Source of the DNA: a virus
Strand: one strand, 5' to 3'
Length of the DNA: 47,254 nucleotides
IMG/VR virus record: IMGVR_UViG_3300037245_000677
Span: 1 to 47,254 of that record
How positions within the stretch are numbered: position 1 is the first letter of the stretch; each line of letters begins with the position of its first letter. This document shows, in pieces, positions 258 through 47,254 of this stretch. Position numbers and translations under genes: made by a program. The notes under the pieces are model-generated. The model saw nothing but the letters and a program-made list of their open reading frames with translations, searched no databases and was not told the origin of the DNA.

Positions 258-743
258 CTATTCAATGCTTAGTATCTCGTTGTTAGCCTCAATTAAAGCA
301 ATTAGCTCTGCCTTTGTCTGTGGTCTGTGGATAACTTCCCCAGTGGTTGTTACTTCTGACTTAGTCGAGTAGTTAAACCATGATTGTAGTACTAAGGACA
401 CGACACGCTCATTGTATATGCCTATTGCTGCGCCTTCTAGTATGTCATCATGGCAGCGTTGCTTAGCGCGCGTAATAACATCACTGTAGTTATTGATTTC
501 ATCATCATATTCACCTTTGATATACCTTGAAACAGATTGAGAACTATTGAGGTCTAAAGCTTCCCTGCACATTCTACCAAAGAATGGAGGTCTAACAAAT
601 TGAATGATATTACCACGTTTAGTAGTTTTAGTTGCAAGGTCTGAATATTGCACTTTGAACCAACTATCTATATCAGCTTGCATATCATCTGAATACTGAT
701 ATTTTCTATGACCGTTATATTTTGGTGTATCAATGCTATTCAT
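258..743 (-). CDS. terS: Terminase small subunit (P22 gp3-like)
   Basis: This 161-residue protein resembles the DNA-packaging gp3/small terminase family. A helix-rich N-terminal half contains PPFFGRMCREA. The typical C-terminal signature ITRAKQRCHDDILEGAAIGI is followed by YNERVVSLVLQSWF. The small subunit recognises the packaging site and recruits the large subunit. The start at 743 is preferred because GGAG lies about 11 bases upstream; the next upstream ATG (764, seven codons longer) has its AGG too close. It is transcribed leftward into the terminal repeat, and on a circular map the small genes before terL follow, so it is the first gene of the late operon. A single exact DnaA-box-like 9-mer (326-334) inside the gene is expected by chance. 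Confidence 0.75.
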   Translation of the reverse strand: MNSIDTPKYNGHRKYQYSDDMQADIDSWFKVQYSDLATKTTKRGNIIQFVRPPFFGRMCREALDLNSSQSVSRYIKGEYDDEINNYSDVITRAKQRCHDDILEGAAIGIYNERVVSLVLQSWFNYSTKSEVTTTGEVIHRPQTKAELIALIEANNEILSIE

Positions 744-876
744 TAAGATTGTAGCTCCAATCATTCCTATCTAATATATAAGTAAGCTTAGTATATAAAC
801 CTATAAGATAAACGTTATACCTCGTATTAATAGCTTTAGGGTAGCACAGATCTAATAGCGTTGTCAAATCACCTAT

Positions 877-13687: not shown

Positions 13688-13726
13688 ACCACAGGTTGAT
13701 GAATGAAATAAGGTTGACAAATGAAA
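13686..13726 (+). repeat. 41-bp direct repeat with -35 box, copy 2
   Basis: Matches 12708-12748 in 40 of 41 positions. Its TTGACA (13714-13719) is the -35 of a complete promoter at 13714-13742. Confidence 0.8.
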
Positions 13727-13742
13727 TACAATCGTGTATAAT
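13714..13742 (+). promoter_or_regulatory. Perfect consensus sigma-A/70 promoter
   Basis: TTGACA (13714-13719) and TATAAT (13737-13742) with a 17-base spacer. It would drive the HTH gene at 13765, the nuclease gene and the replication genes behind them. The -35 belongs to the 41-bp repeat. Confidence 0.85.
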
Positions 13743-14454: not shown

Positions 14455-15264
14455 ATGTTAAATGAAAACTTCTACACAGTTCAAGGATGGATGGTTAACG
14501 AGTTGAAACTCAAAGGAAATGAATTAACATTGTATGCAATCATATACGGATTTACTCAACGTGGTAGTGACAATATATTTATAGGAAGCATCAACTATCT
14601 ATGTTCTTTTATCTCATCATCTAGACAAACGGTAATAACTAACATTAATAGCCTTATCAAAAGAGGTCTTATCGTTAAAACGCAAATAATGTATGAGGGC
14701 AAAATAACCAACAGTTACACTAGTCAAAAAATTAGACTAGTCAAAGATTTAGACCCCACTAGTCAAGAAATTGGACAAAAATCCGAATCTACTAGTCAAG
14801 AAATTAGACCCAATACGTATCCTCCTTCTAATAACGATACTAATAACGATGCTAGTCTTAGTGACTTGAAAAACAAATGGAACAATGAATGCCACCTTAA
14901 AAGCATAGTAGCGATAACTCCGAAGCGTTCACCTTTATTGAATGCTAGACTTAAAGAACATGGCATTGAGAGTTTTAACACCTTGATTGCAATTATTAAC
15001 AGGACCCCATTTCTAAAGGGTGATAATCCTCGTGGATGGGTAGCTAGTTTTGATTGGGTAATTAAACCTGATAACTACGCAAAGATTCTTGAAGATAAGT
15101 ATGTGTCTATTGTTAAAAAATCCAAAGCTCAGCAAAAAGATGATGAATACGAAGCAATGAAAGCAAGCTACTTATCAAAGGATCAACCTGATGATAACAT
15201 GATTGAAATCAACTCAACTGACTATGATATTACCGATGAACCGAAAGGATATGACTATGACTAA
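14455..15264 (+). CDS. Phage replication initiator (winged HTH)
   Basis: A 269-residue protein. The N-terminal winged helix-turn-helix (residues ~5-80, with LTLYAIIYGF and SSSRQTVITNINSLIKRGL) is typical of phage replication initiators and replisome organisers. A low-complexity linker (~85-140) follows and a helicase-loader-like C-terminal domain (NPRGWVASFDWVIKPDNYAK) ends the protein. Four direct repeats lie inside the gene at the linker (14719-14809), as in lambda O, so the protein probably binds its own gene as the replication origin. Genes for a possible loader and DnaB follow. Confidence 0.75.
   Translation: MLNENFYTVQGWMVNELKLKGNELTLYAIIYGFTQRGSDNIFIGSINYLCSFISSSRQTVITNINSLIKRGLIVKTQIMYEGKITNSYTSQKIRLVKDLDPTSQEIGQKSESTSQEIRPNTYPPSNNDTNNDASLSDLKNKWNNECHLKSIVAITPKRSPLLNARLKEHGIESFNTLIAIINRTPFLKGDNPRGWVASFDWVIKPDNYAKILEDKYVSIVKKSKAQQKDDEYEAMKASYLSKDQPDDNMIEINSTDYDITDEPKGYDYD
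14719..14809 (+). repeat. Four iterons within the initiator gene (putative origin)
   Basis: Four 19-bp direct repeats close to ACTAGTCAARAAATTAGAC lie at 14719-14737, 14736-14754, 14758-14776 and 14791-14809. Each contains ACTAGT and has inverted ends (AGTC...GAC; copy 1 with its flank makes a CTAGTC/GACTAG palindrome). They sit in the linker-coding part of an initiator gene, with AT-rich DNA around, matching the known pattern of phage origins nested in initiator genes. They encode TSQEI-type peptide repeats. Confidence 0.75.
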
Positions 15265-38255: not shown

Positions 38256-38530
38256 GATTGTTTCTCCTTTATTTTAGATATTAAATCATCTGTTGACATA
38301 GTTGCATATTTTGGTATGCCTAGTTTTTTTGCTAATGGATAAAGGTCTTTTATCCTATTTGGTTTTTTGTTAACAATCTTATTAACAGGTTTATTAACAG
38401 GTTTATCCACAGGTTTATTAACAATCTTGGCTTCATTAGGTATTAATTCCTTTAGAATTTCCTGTATATTCCATAATAATCTATGTTCAGGTTTATAACA
38501 TTCTTCTTTAGTTATGTTATGTAAATCCAT
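38252..38530 (-). CDS. Virion-region protein with VNKP repeats and SAP/HeH-like end
   Basis: A 92-residue basic protein. The start at 38530 follows AAAGGTG. Residues ~36-56 are tetrapeptide repeats (VNKPVDKPVNKPVNKIVNKK). The C-terminus (IKDLYPLAKKLGIPKYATMS, then TDDLISKIKEK) has the helix-extended-loop-helix/SAP-like pattern found in small phage head-region proteins. It may bind DNA or other head proteins. The repeats are encoded by 12-bp tandem repeats. Confidence 0.55.
   Translation of the reverse strand: MDLHNITKEECYKPEHRLLWNIQEILKELIPNEAKIVNKPVDKPVNKPVNKIVNKKPNRIKDLYPLAKKLGIPKYATMSTDDLISKIKEKQS
38367..38423. repeat. Five 12-bp tandem units with DnaA-box-like 9-mers
   Basis: 9-mers at 38367, 38379, 38391, 38403 and 38415 (TTGTTAACA, TTATTAACA x2, TTATCCACA, TTATTAACA) are spaced exactly 12 bp. 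Only the unit at 38403 matches the DnaA consensus TTATNCACA. The repeats encode VNKP-type peptide units, which could explain them fully. Confidence 0.5.
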
Positions 38531-38968: not shown

Positions 38969-39991
38969 CTACAAACTAGCGATCGATGTTCCGCTTAAGC
39001 CCTTAGAAACCATCAATGTACCCTGCCAAGATGAACCAGGCTCGATTACTTCTCTGCTGTCAGAAGCCCATACTAAAGCACCTGTGTTATTTTCTATGTA
39101 TGATCTTGTAGTTAATTCGCTACGTACTTGATGTACAAATGGACGTGTTTTCTTCATGTAATTAGAATCACATAAGAAGAAGAATGTTGATCCTGCTGTA
39201 GCGCCTGATGGTAAGTTTAGATATTCCCACTCTACAACGGTATAGCGACCAGCGTTAAATACACCAGCTCTATCTGTTGATTCTGGGTTACCTGTTGCGT
39301 TCAATATTTCATAAAGCTTACGTTTTTGAAGCGTATCAGCTCTTGTCAAGCATGGAATTATAATTGTGTCAGGTTGAAGTCCTAATAAATCACCATTAGC
39401 ATCACGTTGACCCTTCATTTGTCCTTCTAAGACAGTTAGACTTTCGTCTGTTAATGTACCATCAAAAGAGTTTGTTTGGTCTTTATAACCTTTTGTCTTG
39501 GATTCATGGTCTATTGCGAATAATGCTCCACCGTCACCAACTTTACTTTGATAAGTAACACCGTCATATACAAAAGTAGTACTTGCTGCGTTCGCTAAGA
39601 AAGCTGCTCCATATTCTTCTATTGTACGATGATAGTTAACTATAATGTCACTTGAATCTTCTATGTTGAATTGATTATCTTGAACCATTCTACGAGAGAT
39701 ACGATACATGTCTAACCAATCGTATTGATTCTCGATTGTCTTTGTCCAGTCGTCCTGTGTCTTAGATTCTGGATAAGGTGCATTCTCGCCACTTGACTTA
39801 AATCTAGAGTTAGACGATGTACGTCCACCATAACCCTCTGCCCAATTGTCTGAGTTCTTATATGGGAAGATTATAGGCATTTTTGAGTTCTTTACAGCAA
39901 GTGATTCCTGCTGTCTTAAATATTGTGCTATAGGAGCATTAAGCTTACCTATCGCTGTACTGTTATCTACTGATCCAGCTAATACTATCAT
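38969..39991 (-). CDS. Major capsid protein (HK97/Mu gpT-like)
   Basis: A 340-residue protein behind AAAGGAG, encoded after scaffold and a small head protein. The long first helix is preceded by an N-arm. The central region (ALFAIDHESKTKGYKDQTN; GLQPDTIIIPCLTRADTLQ) and the final strand (STFFFLCDSNYMKKTRPFV, EVIEPGSSWQGTLMVSKG) match the HK97-fold capsids related to Mu gpT. It forms the icosahedral shell. Confidence 0.8.
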   Translation of the reverse strand: MIVLAGSVDNSTAIGKLNAPIAQYLRQQESLAVKNSKMPIIFPYKNSDNWAEGYGGRTSSNSRFKSSGENAPYPESKTQDDWTKTIENQYDWLDMYRISRRMVQDNQFNIEDSSDIIVNYHRTIEEYGAAFLANAASTTFVYDGVTYQSKVGDGGALFAIDHESKTKGYKDQTNSFDGTLTDESLTVLEGQMKGQRDANGDLLGLQPDTIIIPCLTRADTLQKRKLYEILNATGNPESTDRAGVFNAGRYTVVEWEYLNLPSGATAGSTFFFLCDSNYMKKTRPFVHQVRSELTTRSYIENNTGALVWASDSREVIEPGSSWQGTLMVSKGLSGTSIASL

Positions 39992-41359: not shown

Positions 41360-41515
41360 TTATTTAGGGAAAGCGTTTTTGTAGGTTTTCATGCTTGACC
41401 CTCTAGTACGCAAATCATTGCCCTTGAATATTTTAGGGGTAGAAGTTCCGCCTGTTGGAGCTGTTGCCTTAACGACACCCTTAGCGTTGGGTTTCATGCG
41501 GTCCATTTTATACAT
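41360..41515 (-). CDS. Small basic protein between portal and scaffold
   Basis: A 51-residue basic protein starting eight bases inside the end of the portal gene behind a very strong GGAAGGAGG. It is Gly/Thr/Lys-rich with a central TAPTGGTSTPKIFKGNDLR segment and likely disordered. Unknown role; a minor head component is plausible. Confidence 0.5.
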   Translation of the reverse strand: MYKMDRMKPNAKGVVKATAPTGGTSTPKIFKGNDLRTRGSSMKTYKNAFPK

Positions 41516-43535
41516 TCTGTGGTCCTCCTTCCTGCATTGATTCTGTTAATATCTGTACCTGTTTTTCAGGTGGTACATTCTGTATGAAGTTAATTAGATC
41601 ATCTGGACCCATTGCACTTAATGTTCCAAGTACCTTTGCTGCTATTTCAGATGTAGGATCAACTTGTAGGTCCTCTAATATCTCCTTAGCCATTGGGAAG
41701 TCTATAGTCGCTAATACCTCCCATGCTTGGATTGGTGTTAACATACCTGCATTAAGAAGCACTTGCACCTGTTGATAAATATATTCTTTATCGTTTGGTA
41801 TCTCGCTACTTTTTACAGCTTTAAAGGTGAAGTCAGTATTAAAATACCATTCACCAGATTTATCTTTCATTAATAATTCGTATTTATTATATTCGCTATA
41901 TTCTGTTGCACTATAACCTCTTTCGTTATAATAAGGTCTACTCTCTTGTGTAAAGTTAAGGTCAAACCAAAACATAAGTTCAAATAATCGTTCGTAATAA
42001 TTAAGTTTATTCTGTGCTGCGCTCATTAGAATGCTTTTAGTTTGATTGATCTGTAATTCTTTAGCTTTACCCGACTTAGCAGATGGATCATACTTACCTT
42101 GGAAAGATGATGTTACATTTAATGTACTTGCTGCATCTGCATAAAGCTTATCAGCTAACATTGTATCGTCTTGAATTGGTGATTGAGTTTCAAACTTCTT
42201 AGCACCCTCAATCTGAGAAGGAGTACCTCTAATAACTCTATACACATCATTGCTAATTTCTTCGTGCATTTGATTATCAAGGAATATAATACCACTAGAG
42301 TTAAGTATTTTTTCTTCTCGTCTATGGTATATCTTTTTATGAGATTCTTGTAGATCGCTTATTAATGCTACATCTGAACGACCTCTAAACATAAAGTTAA
42401 GTGGTACATTCTTTCTTATTCCAACAGGGAAGTATTTAGGAACTGGTATATCTATTTTTGTACCAGCAGGAACTATACGTTCCGTAACTATCTTTTCTTC
42501 TTTTTCTTCTACATCTATTGGAACACCGTTATCGTCACGAATAACTATCTTTCTTTTATAAGTATAGACTAAAGGTGTAAGTGTCATATCTTCTTCTGTG
42601 GTAATCTGTGTAATCATCTTGGTTTTGAACTTCTTCTTGCCACATTTATAACATTCTTCTGTACCCTGTTCATTTTCTGCGCCACACTTAGTACATTCTG
42701 ATACTCTTGGATAATAATATTTAGGTAAATCTACTAATATCTCGTCGTTAACCCATGAGAACTTACCTACGTCACCATCTTCATCATAATAGAATCTGGT
42801 AATTTGAGTTACTATATCCTTATTCAAGTCACTTGCTGTACTAGCCACTTCTAAACCGTTTACATTAGTACTTACATTTGTATTAGTAGATGCTGCTTGT
42901 GGGTATTGTTCACCGTTTGATACTGGATATATACCATATTCTTTAAATATATCTTGCTTAGTTCTTGCTGCTAGGGTATGGACATGATCCATTTCTTCAA
43001 TGTTGTATATTCTAGCCTGTGGAATGATGTTTTTAGGATGAACATTAACAATCTCTTTTTCACCTAATGCATCTCGTGAGCCTTTATTTAAGTTCCAGTT
43101 CATTATAGTACATGCTATTCCATGCATATATGTATTGCGCTCGTTTATATCGGTCATACCATAAAAAGGCATAGAATCAATATCGGATAATATTTTACCC
43201 TGAATCATCTTCGCCTGACCTGCCATGCTTTCTCTTCTTGATTTAACTGCTACTGTTGGAATGCTTGTATCTACTTTGGCTTCAATCAGTTCAGATGTGA
43301 AGTTCCTAACAACATTAGTCTCTTTTATAGGTTGATTTGATTTACTATTAACATTAGCTAGTGTAGAACTGCTACCTTTATAGCGTTCTTCAAAGAAGTT
43401 AAATACATCATTTTGATCATACGAACTGTAATCGTCTAGAAACTCAGCTTTAAATTCGTTTAATTTATCACTAGCGATCCTATTATCGTCCATATCTTCA
43501 TCCATATGCTTTGTTTTTGTGCTAAATAAAGCCAT
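41508..43535 (-). CDS. Portal protein with inserted zinc ribbon
   Basis: A 675-residue portal. The N-terminus (DQNDVFNFFEERYKGSSSTL, then VRNFTSELIEAKV) and helical C-terminal part (EYIYQQVQVLLNAGMLTPIQ) fit podovirus portals that gate DNA entry. Near residues 278-297 lies CTKCGAENEQGTEECYKCG (CX2C-X10-CX2C), a rubredoxin-like zinc ribbon flanked by beta segments, an addition to the usual portal fold. A perfect promoter with DnaA-like boxes (43579-43651) lies just upstream. Confidence 0.8.
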   Translation of the reverse strand: MALFSTKTKHMDEDMDDNRIASDKLNEFKAEFLDDYSSYDQNDVFNFFEERYKGSSSTLANVNSKSNQPIKETNVVRNFTSELIEAKVDTSIPTVAVKSRRESMAGQAKMIQGKILSDIDSMPFYGMTDINERNTYMHGIACTIMNWNLNKGSRDALGEKEIVNVHPKNIIPQARIYNIEEMDHVHTLAARTKQDIFKEYGIYPVSNGEQYPQAASTNTNVSTNVNGLEVASTASDLNKDIVTQITRFYYDEDGDVGKFSWVNDEILVDLPKYYYPRVSECTKCGAENEQGTEECYKCGKKKFKTKMITQITTEEDMTLTPLVYTYKRKIVIRDDNGVPIDVEEKEEKIVTERIVPAGTKIDIPVPKYFPVGIRKNVPLNFMFRGRSDVALISDLQESHKKIYHRREEKILNSSGIIFLDNQMHEEISNDVYRVIRGTPSQIEGAKKFETQSPIQDDTMLADKLYADAASTLNVTSSFQGKYDPSAKSGKAKELQINQTKSILMSAAQNKLNYYERLFELMFWFDLNFTQESRPYYNERGYSATEYSEYNKYELLMKDKSGEWYFNTDFTFKAVKSSEIPNDKEYIYQQVQVLLNAGMLTPIQAWEVLATIDFPMAKEILEDLQVDPTSEIAAKVLGTLSAMGPDDLINFIQNVPPEKQVQILTESMQEGGPQNV

Positions 43536-43578
43536 TAATATTCTCCTGTAAAGTGTCAGTTGTTAATAACATACGTAA

Positions 43579-43607
43579 TTATAAGCTAAATGTGCATAAA
43601 TGTCAAG
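43579..43607 (-). promoter_or_regulatory. Perfect consensus sigma-A/70 promoter before portal
   Basis: Read on the - strand, TTGACA (43607-43602) and TATAAT (43584-43579) are separated by 17 bases. It would start a late transcript just upstream of the portal gene, independent of terL. A DnaA-type 9-mer (43592-43600) lies in its spacer and four more are just upstream. Confidence 0.85.
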
Positions 43608-43651
43608 TTATCAACAGTTTATACACACGTTTATACACATAGTTATGCACA
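43592..43651. repeat. Cluster of five DnaA-box-like 9-mers
   Basis: On the + strand: TTATCAACA (43609-43617), TTATACACA (43619-43627), TTATACACA (43631-43639) and TTATGCACA (43643-43651). On the - strand: TTATGCACA (43592-43600). Four fit the DnaA consensus TTATNCACA exactly, and the fifth differs at one place. Starts are 10-12 bp apart, about one helical turn, so bound proteins would line up on one face. This may be an origin or a DnaA-controlled promoter. Confidence 0.75.
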
Positions 43652-45418
43652 TTAGTTCTTCCAAAATTCTTCTCTTGGTTTTAATAGTCCTCTATCCACA
43701 TATCGTTTAAGAAGCATTGGCTTAACTTCTTCTGGTGAACTCATATAATCTTCATAATAATCTGCTCTTAAAGTTGTTAGATCATAATCAGCATATGCCT
43801 GAGCTTCATTTGTATATTGATCATCTCTGCAATATCTACAGATAGCAGATGCCATTACCATATCGTCATGTTGTCCAAGCATAGCTTCTGGTTTTCCTTT
43901 ATCGTTTCTTGCAAATGTGTTAGCTTCTTTAATAAAGACAATATCTCTAATATTCTCTGGCGATTCCCTTACTATTACCCTTAGACTATCCAACATTAAT
44001 GGTCTAGTTTTCTTATTAGTATTGAACCCATGTTTCTTAGGAGTACCACCTACATAACTATCAGGATCACCTTTTTGGGTGTACATATTGTCATATCCCA
44101 TGCGCAGTATTTCTTTCATAGGATGGCTAGAAAAGTTAGTTTCAATAGCCATAAGAGCGTTATTAGGACATTCGTTAAGCAACCCATAATACTTACCTAA
44201 ACAATACAGTTGCCTTGCATATAGGTCCTCGTCACCACTCATATGGACACTTGCTACGTCATGTTCAGTTATATTATTCATGCACAGTGCAGCGTTCTTA
44301 TCTGAGCCATCACCTGCTGTATCAGCACCTATAACGTATGGAGTATGTATCCTTGGTTCTTCGTATATCCTTATATCCCCGAATGCATCATCTACCCATT
44401 TTATAGTATCATCGATTATCACATGGTTAAGATATTCAAAGAAGAAATAGCCCCTTGTTAAGCCATTTTCAGCTATATACTTATCCATAATAACTCTACG
44501 CTCATTTATATTATATTTATCGAAGTATATTCCACCAACGATACCCCATTGTCCTAGAGCGTATACATTATATTCGTTCTTATCATGCTTTTCCATATCA
44601 CGAAGGACTTGCCTGTCTGAATATTTAAGGAACTTATTATCAAGGAATGTAGTATGTAATATGACGGTATTGTAATAATATATTTCTTCTTCATCTCCTG
44701 TATCAGGATCAATTACGGTAATCTTCTTAGATAGGTCTATGGATTCGTCTGCTTTATCATATCGAGTGAAATCCTCGAATATAGCCTTACCTCTTAAACA
44801 GACCGTTTTATCATCTTTACCATCAAAGAATCTGCCCTTTATCCACGATGTGATGGACACAGGGTTAAAGCTTAGCATTATCTGCATGTATCCATCATAG
44901 CCACGTAAACGTCTGTCAAGCTCTCTTAAGTCCTTATGAAGTACTTGGTCGGCTTCTTCTATCCAAATTGATGTAATATCGAATATAGATTTTAGTTTTT
45001 CAACATCATCTAACCCTGCGAATAATAATTCGTTGCCAAATAACTTTATTCGTTCGTTACCTTGACCTACATTAAATACCCATGGCAAATCAGGGTAACG
45101 TAATAATGCTCTTGCTTTTAATAATGGGAATTGTGATTCTGTAATTTGCTTTCTTTCATTTCTTATGCACAATATTCTATGTGCTTGACCTATATTCTCT
45201 TTAGTTTCATGGACAATACGATCTAGAACCTTATCGGCAGCTTCATAGGATTTGCCTGATGCAGATCCACCTATCATTACAAGGTATCTACCCATATACT
45301 CTCTAATAGGCTTGTAGACCTTGTTACGCTCTTGCTTTTCCTTTACAAGAAGATTAGATATAGCAACTTCGGCTCTCAGTGTTTCAAGCTCTATTGCTTC
45401 ACGATCAATGATTGGCAT
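43652..45418 (-). CDS. terL: Terminase large subunit
   Basis: A 588-residue packaging motor. The ATPase part has Walker A GGSASGKSY (50-58), Walker B IWIEEAD (151-157), and coupling motif LSFNP (182-186). The nuclease part has the RNase H-like acidic residues Asp366 (GADTAGDGSDKNAA), Glu426 (MAIETNFSSH) and Asp518/519 (GQHDDMVMA). It pumps DNA into the procapsid and cuts at unit length or headful. It starts in the TAATG overlap with the preceding gene. The nuclease tail looks like the PBSX-type Terminase_3/6C group. Confidence 0.92.
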   Translation of the reverse strand: MPIIDREAIELETLRAEVAISNLLVKEKQERNKVYKPIREYMGRYLVMIGGSASGKSYEAADKVLDRIVHETKENIGQAHRILCIRNERKQITESQFPLLKARALLRYPDLPWVFNVGQGNERIKLFGNELLFAGLDDVEKLKSIFDITSIWIEEADQVLHKDLRELDRRLRGYDGYMQIMLSFNPVSITSWIKGRFFDGKDDKTVCLRGKAIFEDFTRYDKADESIDLSKKITVIDPDTGDEEEIYYYNTVILHTTFLDNKFLKYSDRQVLRDMEKHDKNEYNVYALGQWGIVGGIYFDKYNINERRVIMDKYIAENGLTRGYFFFEYLNHVIIDDTIKWVDDAFGDIRIYEEPRIHTPYVIGADTAGDGSDKNAALCMNNITEHDVASVHMSGDEDLYARQLYCLGKYYGLLNECPNNALMAIETNFSSHPMKEILRMGYDNMYTQKGDPDSYVGGTPKKHGFNTNKKTRPLMLDSLRVIVRESPENIRDIVFIKEANTFARNDKGKPEAMLGQHDDMVMASAICRYCRDDQYTNEAQAYADYDLTTLRADYYEDYMSSPEEVKPMLLKRYVDRGLLKPREEFWKN

Positions 45419-47118: not shown

Positions 47119-47254
47119 GGGGGTGGGGGTTGGTCGTACTCCCCATGGGGTAGGGGGTGGGGGTACATAGAACAATGACAAATACCCCAGAAAACAGAGG
47201 GGGAGGGTGTGACTATCGCATACATGGAGCACACACACATACAATGGGGGGGTG
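47119..47254. repeat. Direct terminal repeat, right copy
   Basis: Same 136 bases as positions 1-136, with one difference: T at 47245 where the left copy has G at 127. The preceding 68 bases (47051-47118) hold no gene. Confidence 0.9.

Follow-up and report, generated by a model that had tools for sequence, protein, structure and literature searches.

The terL-portal gap of an uncultured phage contains a consensus promoter with DnaA-box-like sites both upstream of it and within it. The window analysed here is the whole of the IMG/VR phage record IMGVR_UViG_3300037245_000677 (47,254 bases), and we read its segment at 43.58-43.65 kb, with about even confidence, as a regulated internal late promoter of the portal/capsid module controlled by DnaA boxes. 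The first-pass annotation of this DNA had suggested that host DnaA represses or times the expression of portal and downstream late genes, or that the site is a second replication origin; this interpretation is supported in part, the best-supported reading being that the portal promoter incorporates an array of DnaA type. The ingredients of such a promoter are known and their placement is new, and DnaA-box promoters conserved in an uncultured virus clade came as a side result.

The genome is probably complete and circularly joined, since a near-perfect repeat of 136 bp (135/136 identical) occupies both of its ends, 1-136 and 47119-47254. This repeat is G-rich on the + strand, internally repetitive and located between the terS-like gene and the next late gene. 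Early and replication genes are read rightward and make up most of the first 21.6 kb, while virion genes occupy 47.2 kb to 21.7 kb and are read leftward. The order of the late block, followed across the join, is terS-like, several small genes, terL, portal, major head protein and tail genes, with terL upstream of portal in one leftward gene block (Table 1). The assignment of terL is solid. The portal protein of the window itself matched no family, and its call is made by transitivity, because its homologues match phrog_156 ‘portal protein’: the L003 homologue (47% identical to the window protein) at 4.7e-16 and four more distant ones at 1e-37 to 1e-57. Its AlphaFold model was unusable (pLDDT 42). 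At residues about 281-298 the portal protein carries a zinc-ribbon-like insertion with four cysteines (Cys-x2-Cys...Cys-x2-Cys), which is conserved in relatives.

Table 1 Features of the window discussed in the text; box centres are counted from the inferred start at 43571
Feature	Position	Strand	Remarks
terS-like gene	258-764		late block
DnaD/O-like initiator gene	14455-15264		
Major head protein gene	38969-39991		late block
Portal gene	41508-43535	-	675 aa; first gene of the module read from the promoter
terL-portal intergenic region	43536-43651	-	116 bp, 28% GC; holds the promoter and all boxes
Inferred 5' untranslated leader	43536-43571	-	about 36 nt; Shine-Dalgarno-like AGGAG before the portal ATG
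Start point	about 43571	-	inferred from the -10 position
Perfect sigma-70/sigma-A promoter	43578-43606	-	TTGACA-N17-TATAAT, 12/12 consensus matches, reads into portal
-10 TATAAT	43583-43578	-	
Exact box TTATGCACA	43591-43599	-	in the promoter spacer, centre about -24; on the promoter's strand, inverted relative to the array
-35 TTGACA	43606-43601	-	followed by the 17-bp spacer
Near-match box TTATCAACA, one mismatch	43608-43616	+	centre about -41; one base from -35
Exact box TTATACACA	43619-43627	+	centre about -52
Exact box TTATACACA	43631-43639	+	centre about -64
Exact box TTATGCACA	43643-43651	+	centre about -76; directly adjoins the terL stop codon (begins 43652)
terL, terminase large subunit	43652-45418	-	phrog_3717/phrog_2; TIGR01547 above its cut-off

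The leftward strand of the gap reads TGTGCATAA-cta-TGTGTATAA-acg-TGTGTATAA-ac-TGTTGATAA-c-TTGACA-t-TTATGCACA-tttagct-TATAAT. The perfect promoter that had been reported between terL and portal was recovered in full on the - strand, and no RNA family of note was found at this site. Promoters of the TTGACA-17-TATAAT type are rare in the window, with two in the genome against about 0.1 expected from shuffles, and the box array coincides with one of them. The other, at 13693-13742, overlies an 18-bp tandem repeat; a short ORF and the initiator region follow downstream of it, and it has no DnaA boxes.

Four exact TTATNCACA boxes and one box with a single mismatch fall within 61 bp. The word TTATNCACA is the DnaA-box consensus of B. 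subtilis, in which any base is allowed at N (PMC4447404). Four of the five boxes stand head-to-tail on the + strand, upstream of -35, with starts 11, 12 and 12 bp apart. The exact copies vary among themselves solely at N (A, A, G, G), the linkers in between are variable, and the near-match has C at position 5 and A at position 6. The sigma-70 promoter is thus both flanked and overlapped by boxes, as expected of a DnaA-regulated promoter.

The clustering is well beyond chance. In the window, TTATNCACA occurs nine times exactly versus 3.9 expected, and 600 dinucleotide shuffles never placed more than two exact boxes in any 61 bp, where four are observed. Among 19,793 gapped 9-mers of the form xxxxNxxxx in the window, TTATNCACA shows the highest local clustering (four), and a value of three is reached by only four others. 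The first-pass annotation was right in every particular of its description that could be checked: the number of exact and near-match sites, the four boxes on one strand (for which it gave 10-12 bp spacing), the fifth on the other strand inside the promoter spacer, and its judgement that five phased boxes in 60 bp exceed chance.

A functionless tandem duplication of a 12-bp unit, which happens to lie beside a strong constitutive promoter, is another explanation of the repeats. Two copies share 10 of 12 bases, the array lacks conservation in relatives (see below), and another repeat with a 12-bp period at 38.37-38.42 kb is coding. We nevertheless regard such an origin of the array as very unlikely: the eight fixed bases are constant in the exact copies and divergence is confined to N and the linkers, and the inverted fifth copy in the promoter spacer is no product of tandem duplication. 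The coding repeat (38366-38423) is the second strongly clustered word family of the window; it consists of 12-bp tandem repeats of TTTATTAACAGG, includes one exact DnaA box and encodes a PVNK/PVDK linker in a 113-aa ORF.

We searched 2.9 million viral contigs for three boxes separated by gaps of 1-5 bp, which allows spacings of 10-14 bp. Such triple arrays were found in at least 120 contigs versus three for the reversed-motif control, i.e. they are at least 40-fold commoner than the control. Among the matches listed, 301 of 314 spacings (96%) were 11 or 12 bp. The window, with same-strand boxes at 11, 12 and 12 bp, therefore has both word and geometry in common with the viral arrays. The base composition of its boxes is atypical. 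N is C in 77% of the boxes of the viral arrays among the matches listed, mostly with G on both flanks, while no exact box of the window has C at position 5 and the G flanks are mostly missing; we counted this against DnaA, these traits being usual and not defining. Triples with only A or G at position 5 are rare (5 of 157 matched triples). Such boxes fit a DnaA of different host preference or an array of moderate affinity, and they also leave room for a different protein.

In that case the repeats would be the operator of another regulator, of phage or host, that reads the DnaA-box-like TTTATACACA / TGTGTATAAA and controls the portal promoter, and DnaA would not be involved. We treat this as a possibility to be taken seriously, though a distinctly less probable one. 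The A/A/G/G variants at N and the scarcity of G flanks are unusual for viral DnaA arrays, many proteins encoded in the window have no assignment, and a plan of 12-bp direct repeats would suit other oligomeric regulators equally. On the other hand, the motif is clustered at this site only, hence there is no phage-wide set of operators, the four exact copies differ solely at the position that is degenerate for DnaA, and the boxes are spaced as in canonical DnaA arrays. No Bac_DnaA_C or other DnaA-like domain was detected among the proteins encoded by the phage, so that, on our preferred reading of a DnaA-controlled promoter, the candidate reader of the boxes is the DnaA of the host. As the relatives of TerL are mostly in Bacillota (one, in a Vallitalea MAG, is 50% identical), a host in this phylum is a reasonable guess, no more.

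The viral arrays occur in different gene neighbourhoods. Some adjoin replication genes, namely those for a DnaB helicase (L122) and a primase/helicase (L056), and one an integrase gene (L015); others, in several viral contigs that are unrelated, lie beside genes for the large terminase (four lineages: L061 group, L031, L110 and L116), the small terminase (L118 group) and the tail sheath (L115). All that these neighbours show is that arrays also occur outside replication modules. In one contig (L041) the array is directly upstream of another perfect TTGACA-17-TATAAT. Overall, the link between triple arrays and strong promoters is weak, with promoters scoring at least 10 near 18% of arrays and 15% of controls; promoters of at least 10/12 that start no more than 60 bp past the array in the same direction were found for 8 of 123, versus a few per bin elsewhere. 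The spacer box was also considered as a general phage device and rejected, as it was not enriched (57 versus 77 in the reversed-motif control). With the spacer box alone not enriched, it is the overall plan that matters and not the single site.

Searches of phage records and of viral and genome contigs found no close relatives, the best matches being 47% identical for portal and 54% for TerL; the nearest relatives are 40-47% identical. An exact box within 400 bp upstream of portal was present in none of 64 related loci, some of which are incomplete there, and boxes are absent in the relatives of TerL and portal that are about 25-54% identical. The nearer relatives examined have no strong promoter upstream of portal either. 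With homologues devoid of boxes and the nearer ones devoid of a strong promoter, promoter and array appear together only in the window, which would make them a lineage-specific unit. In the relative G005, two boxes 11 bp apart were rejected as an array of the window type: they form the centre of a palindrome located where a 465-aa ORF begins. This palindrome (L225:2320-2365) has the form GCATACTGTGCAT-N14-ATGCACAGTATGC and contains two DnaA-box-like words.

The other option raised in the first-pass annotation, that the phage has a second replication origin dependent on DnaA, appears highly improbable. Points in its favour are the clustering of DnaA boxes, the AT-richness of the gap (28% GC; least stable local 50-mer at the 98th percentile) and the arrays of some other phages, those near the helicase and primase genes of L122 and L056. 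However, the turn of GC skew that had been proposed as a check is missing at 43.6 kb. The cumulative curve has its turns at 21.7 kb and close to the ends of the sequence, and from 21.7 kb onward it declines almost without interruption; since the skew tracks gene direction, it is a weak indicator of origins. Neither terminal box has a run of DnaA-trios (three trios) within 45 nt, and a consensus promoter occupies the site. Moreover, the phage owns a DnaD/O-like initiator with iterons, a helicase loader and a DnaB-type helicase. The iterons, four 20-nt CACTAGTCAARAAATTAGAC-like repeats at 14718-14809, form a set of the type usual for phage origins, lie inside the initiator gene and are the likely phage origin. 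Head-to-tail boxes 11-12 bp apart are what the window shares with bacterial oriC and with phage DnaA-box arrays; it differs from them in having no DnaA-trios and no skew turn, in the consensus promoter at the site and in iterons placed elsewhere.

Returning to the portal promoter, we infer from the sequence and spacing of the boxes that host DnaA binds the array. Repression of the promoter by the bound protein is probable, at a weaker level of inference: with one box between -35 and -10 and another adjoining -35, DnaA would block RNA polymerase. In the mechanism that we propose, the consensus promoter would be read leftward into portal and then into capsid and tail genes. Host DnaA would cooperatively fill the four head-to-tail boxes upstream of -35 together with the spacer box, and at high occupancy it would block RNA polymerase, keeping the strong promoter silent early. 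Phage replication would multiply the boxes, titrate DnaA and free the promoter, and capsid gene expression would thereby be coupled to phage copy number. In the main variant of this scheme, DnaA bound upstream (boxes at -52 to -76) would activate at lower occupancy. The arrangement suggests that the host replication machinery may help to time or limit the production of virus particles.

Clusters of DnaA boxes of the datA type have been proposed to titrate DnaA. The array in the window might accordingly be a sink, which when replicated soaks up host DnaA and stops host initiation, with the promoter merely adjacent. A box cluster on a multicopy genome would indeed titrate DnaA, but each genome contributes just four or five boxes and a sink has no need of a placement around -35 and -10, and we consider this explanation unlikely.

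DnaA is an established transcription factor that acts at box-containing promoters as repressor or activator (PMC8203912). In the DnaA-regulated bacterial promoters, repression or activation depends on occupancy and nucleotide state; at nrdAB of E. coli, low DnaA activates and high DnaA-ATP represses (PMC8203912). The promoters of dnaA (autoregulation), nrdAB, gua and mioC resemble the one in the window in having boxes within and around the promoter (PMC8203912). The latter differs from them in being a phage promoter that serves portal and virion genes, with candidate boxes arranged as four head-to-tail copies plus one in the spacer. In the literature searched, we came across a single phage precedent: in lambda, host DnaA modulates transcription from early/replication promoters by binding at box-like sequences of pR / pO and ori-lambda (PMC3985674 and references therein). 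The lambda sites belong to the early/replication region and exert their effect via replication, whereas those of the window are arranged around a late structural promoter that is remote from the initiator gene. For phages, no late promoter with DnaA boxes was encountered in the open-access full-text literature searched.

It is often unclear how phages time their late genes when they have no dedicated late activator. If the portal promoter is controlled as proposed, its DnaA boxes would let it count phage genome copies in a simple way by means of the host's initiator, and DnaA would be a direct player in the lytic programme, beyond origin activation of the lambda type.

Viral contigs were also scanned for a tandem pair of boxes with TTGACA following at no more than 30 bp, and related loci were collapsed afterwards. 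Among the matches listed, most such loci fall in two clusters. A periodicity in the distance from box to -35 was not significant across unrelated clusters after collapsing (p about 0.97), so the peaks at 6, 17 and 28 bp come from two clades. The quality of -10 after a box pair with TTGACA was about equal to that after all TTGACA in those loci.

In one of these clusters, an uncultured virus clade, a strikingly conserved cassette recurs in 22 aligned contigs (L466, L469, L470, L473, L475, L477, L479, L485, L494, L496, L497, L503, L509, L511, L514, L517, L526, L527, L531, L550, L552 and L039). It reads about ATCAGTAAGATTTATCTGTGGATAAACCTGTGGATAACTAT, then, after a spacer of variable length, TATTGACATGTGGATAACT, followed by a TGATAT-like -10 and ATATATG; it can also be rendered as ATCAGTAA(G/C)AT, two tandem TGTGGATAA boxes and then TTGACATGTGGATAAC, in the last of which a DnaA box within the spacer is joined to -35. 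The cassette thus has two tandem boxes upstream of -35 and a third in the -35/-10 spacer, centred near -25 (-24 in the window). No sequence relation of this clade to the window phage was detected, and the pieces of the cassette that were tried had no match in 50,697 phage records.

The cassette is an independent case of the plan seen in the window, namely tandem upstream boxes plus a spacer box. In L466, L469, L477, L503, L514, L517 and others the upstream tandem boxes are 11-12 bp apart, as in the window. The differences are that the boxes of the clade are canonical TTATCCACA, that its spacer box is oppositely oriented, the one in the window being inverted, that the upstream boxes stand at a different distance from -35, and that the genes that follow are of other kinds and seem leaderless. 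We put forward tentatively, as a general proposal that we think rather doubtful at present, that promoters with built-in boxes for host DnaA, whose level or nucleotide state would set expression, exist in phages of several unrelated lineages, and that in the window phage titration driven by replication would act as the early-to-late switch. As at least one clade of uncultured viruses has conserved DnaA-box cassettes, this idea is testable in several systems. The genes downstream of the cassette are of different kinds, with start codons that are often almost at the expected start point of transcription, and 12 clade records contain three to ten exact TGTGGATAA each, versus none to two for the reversed word.
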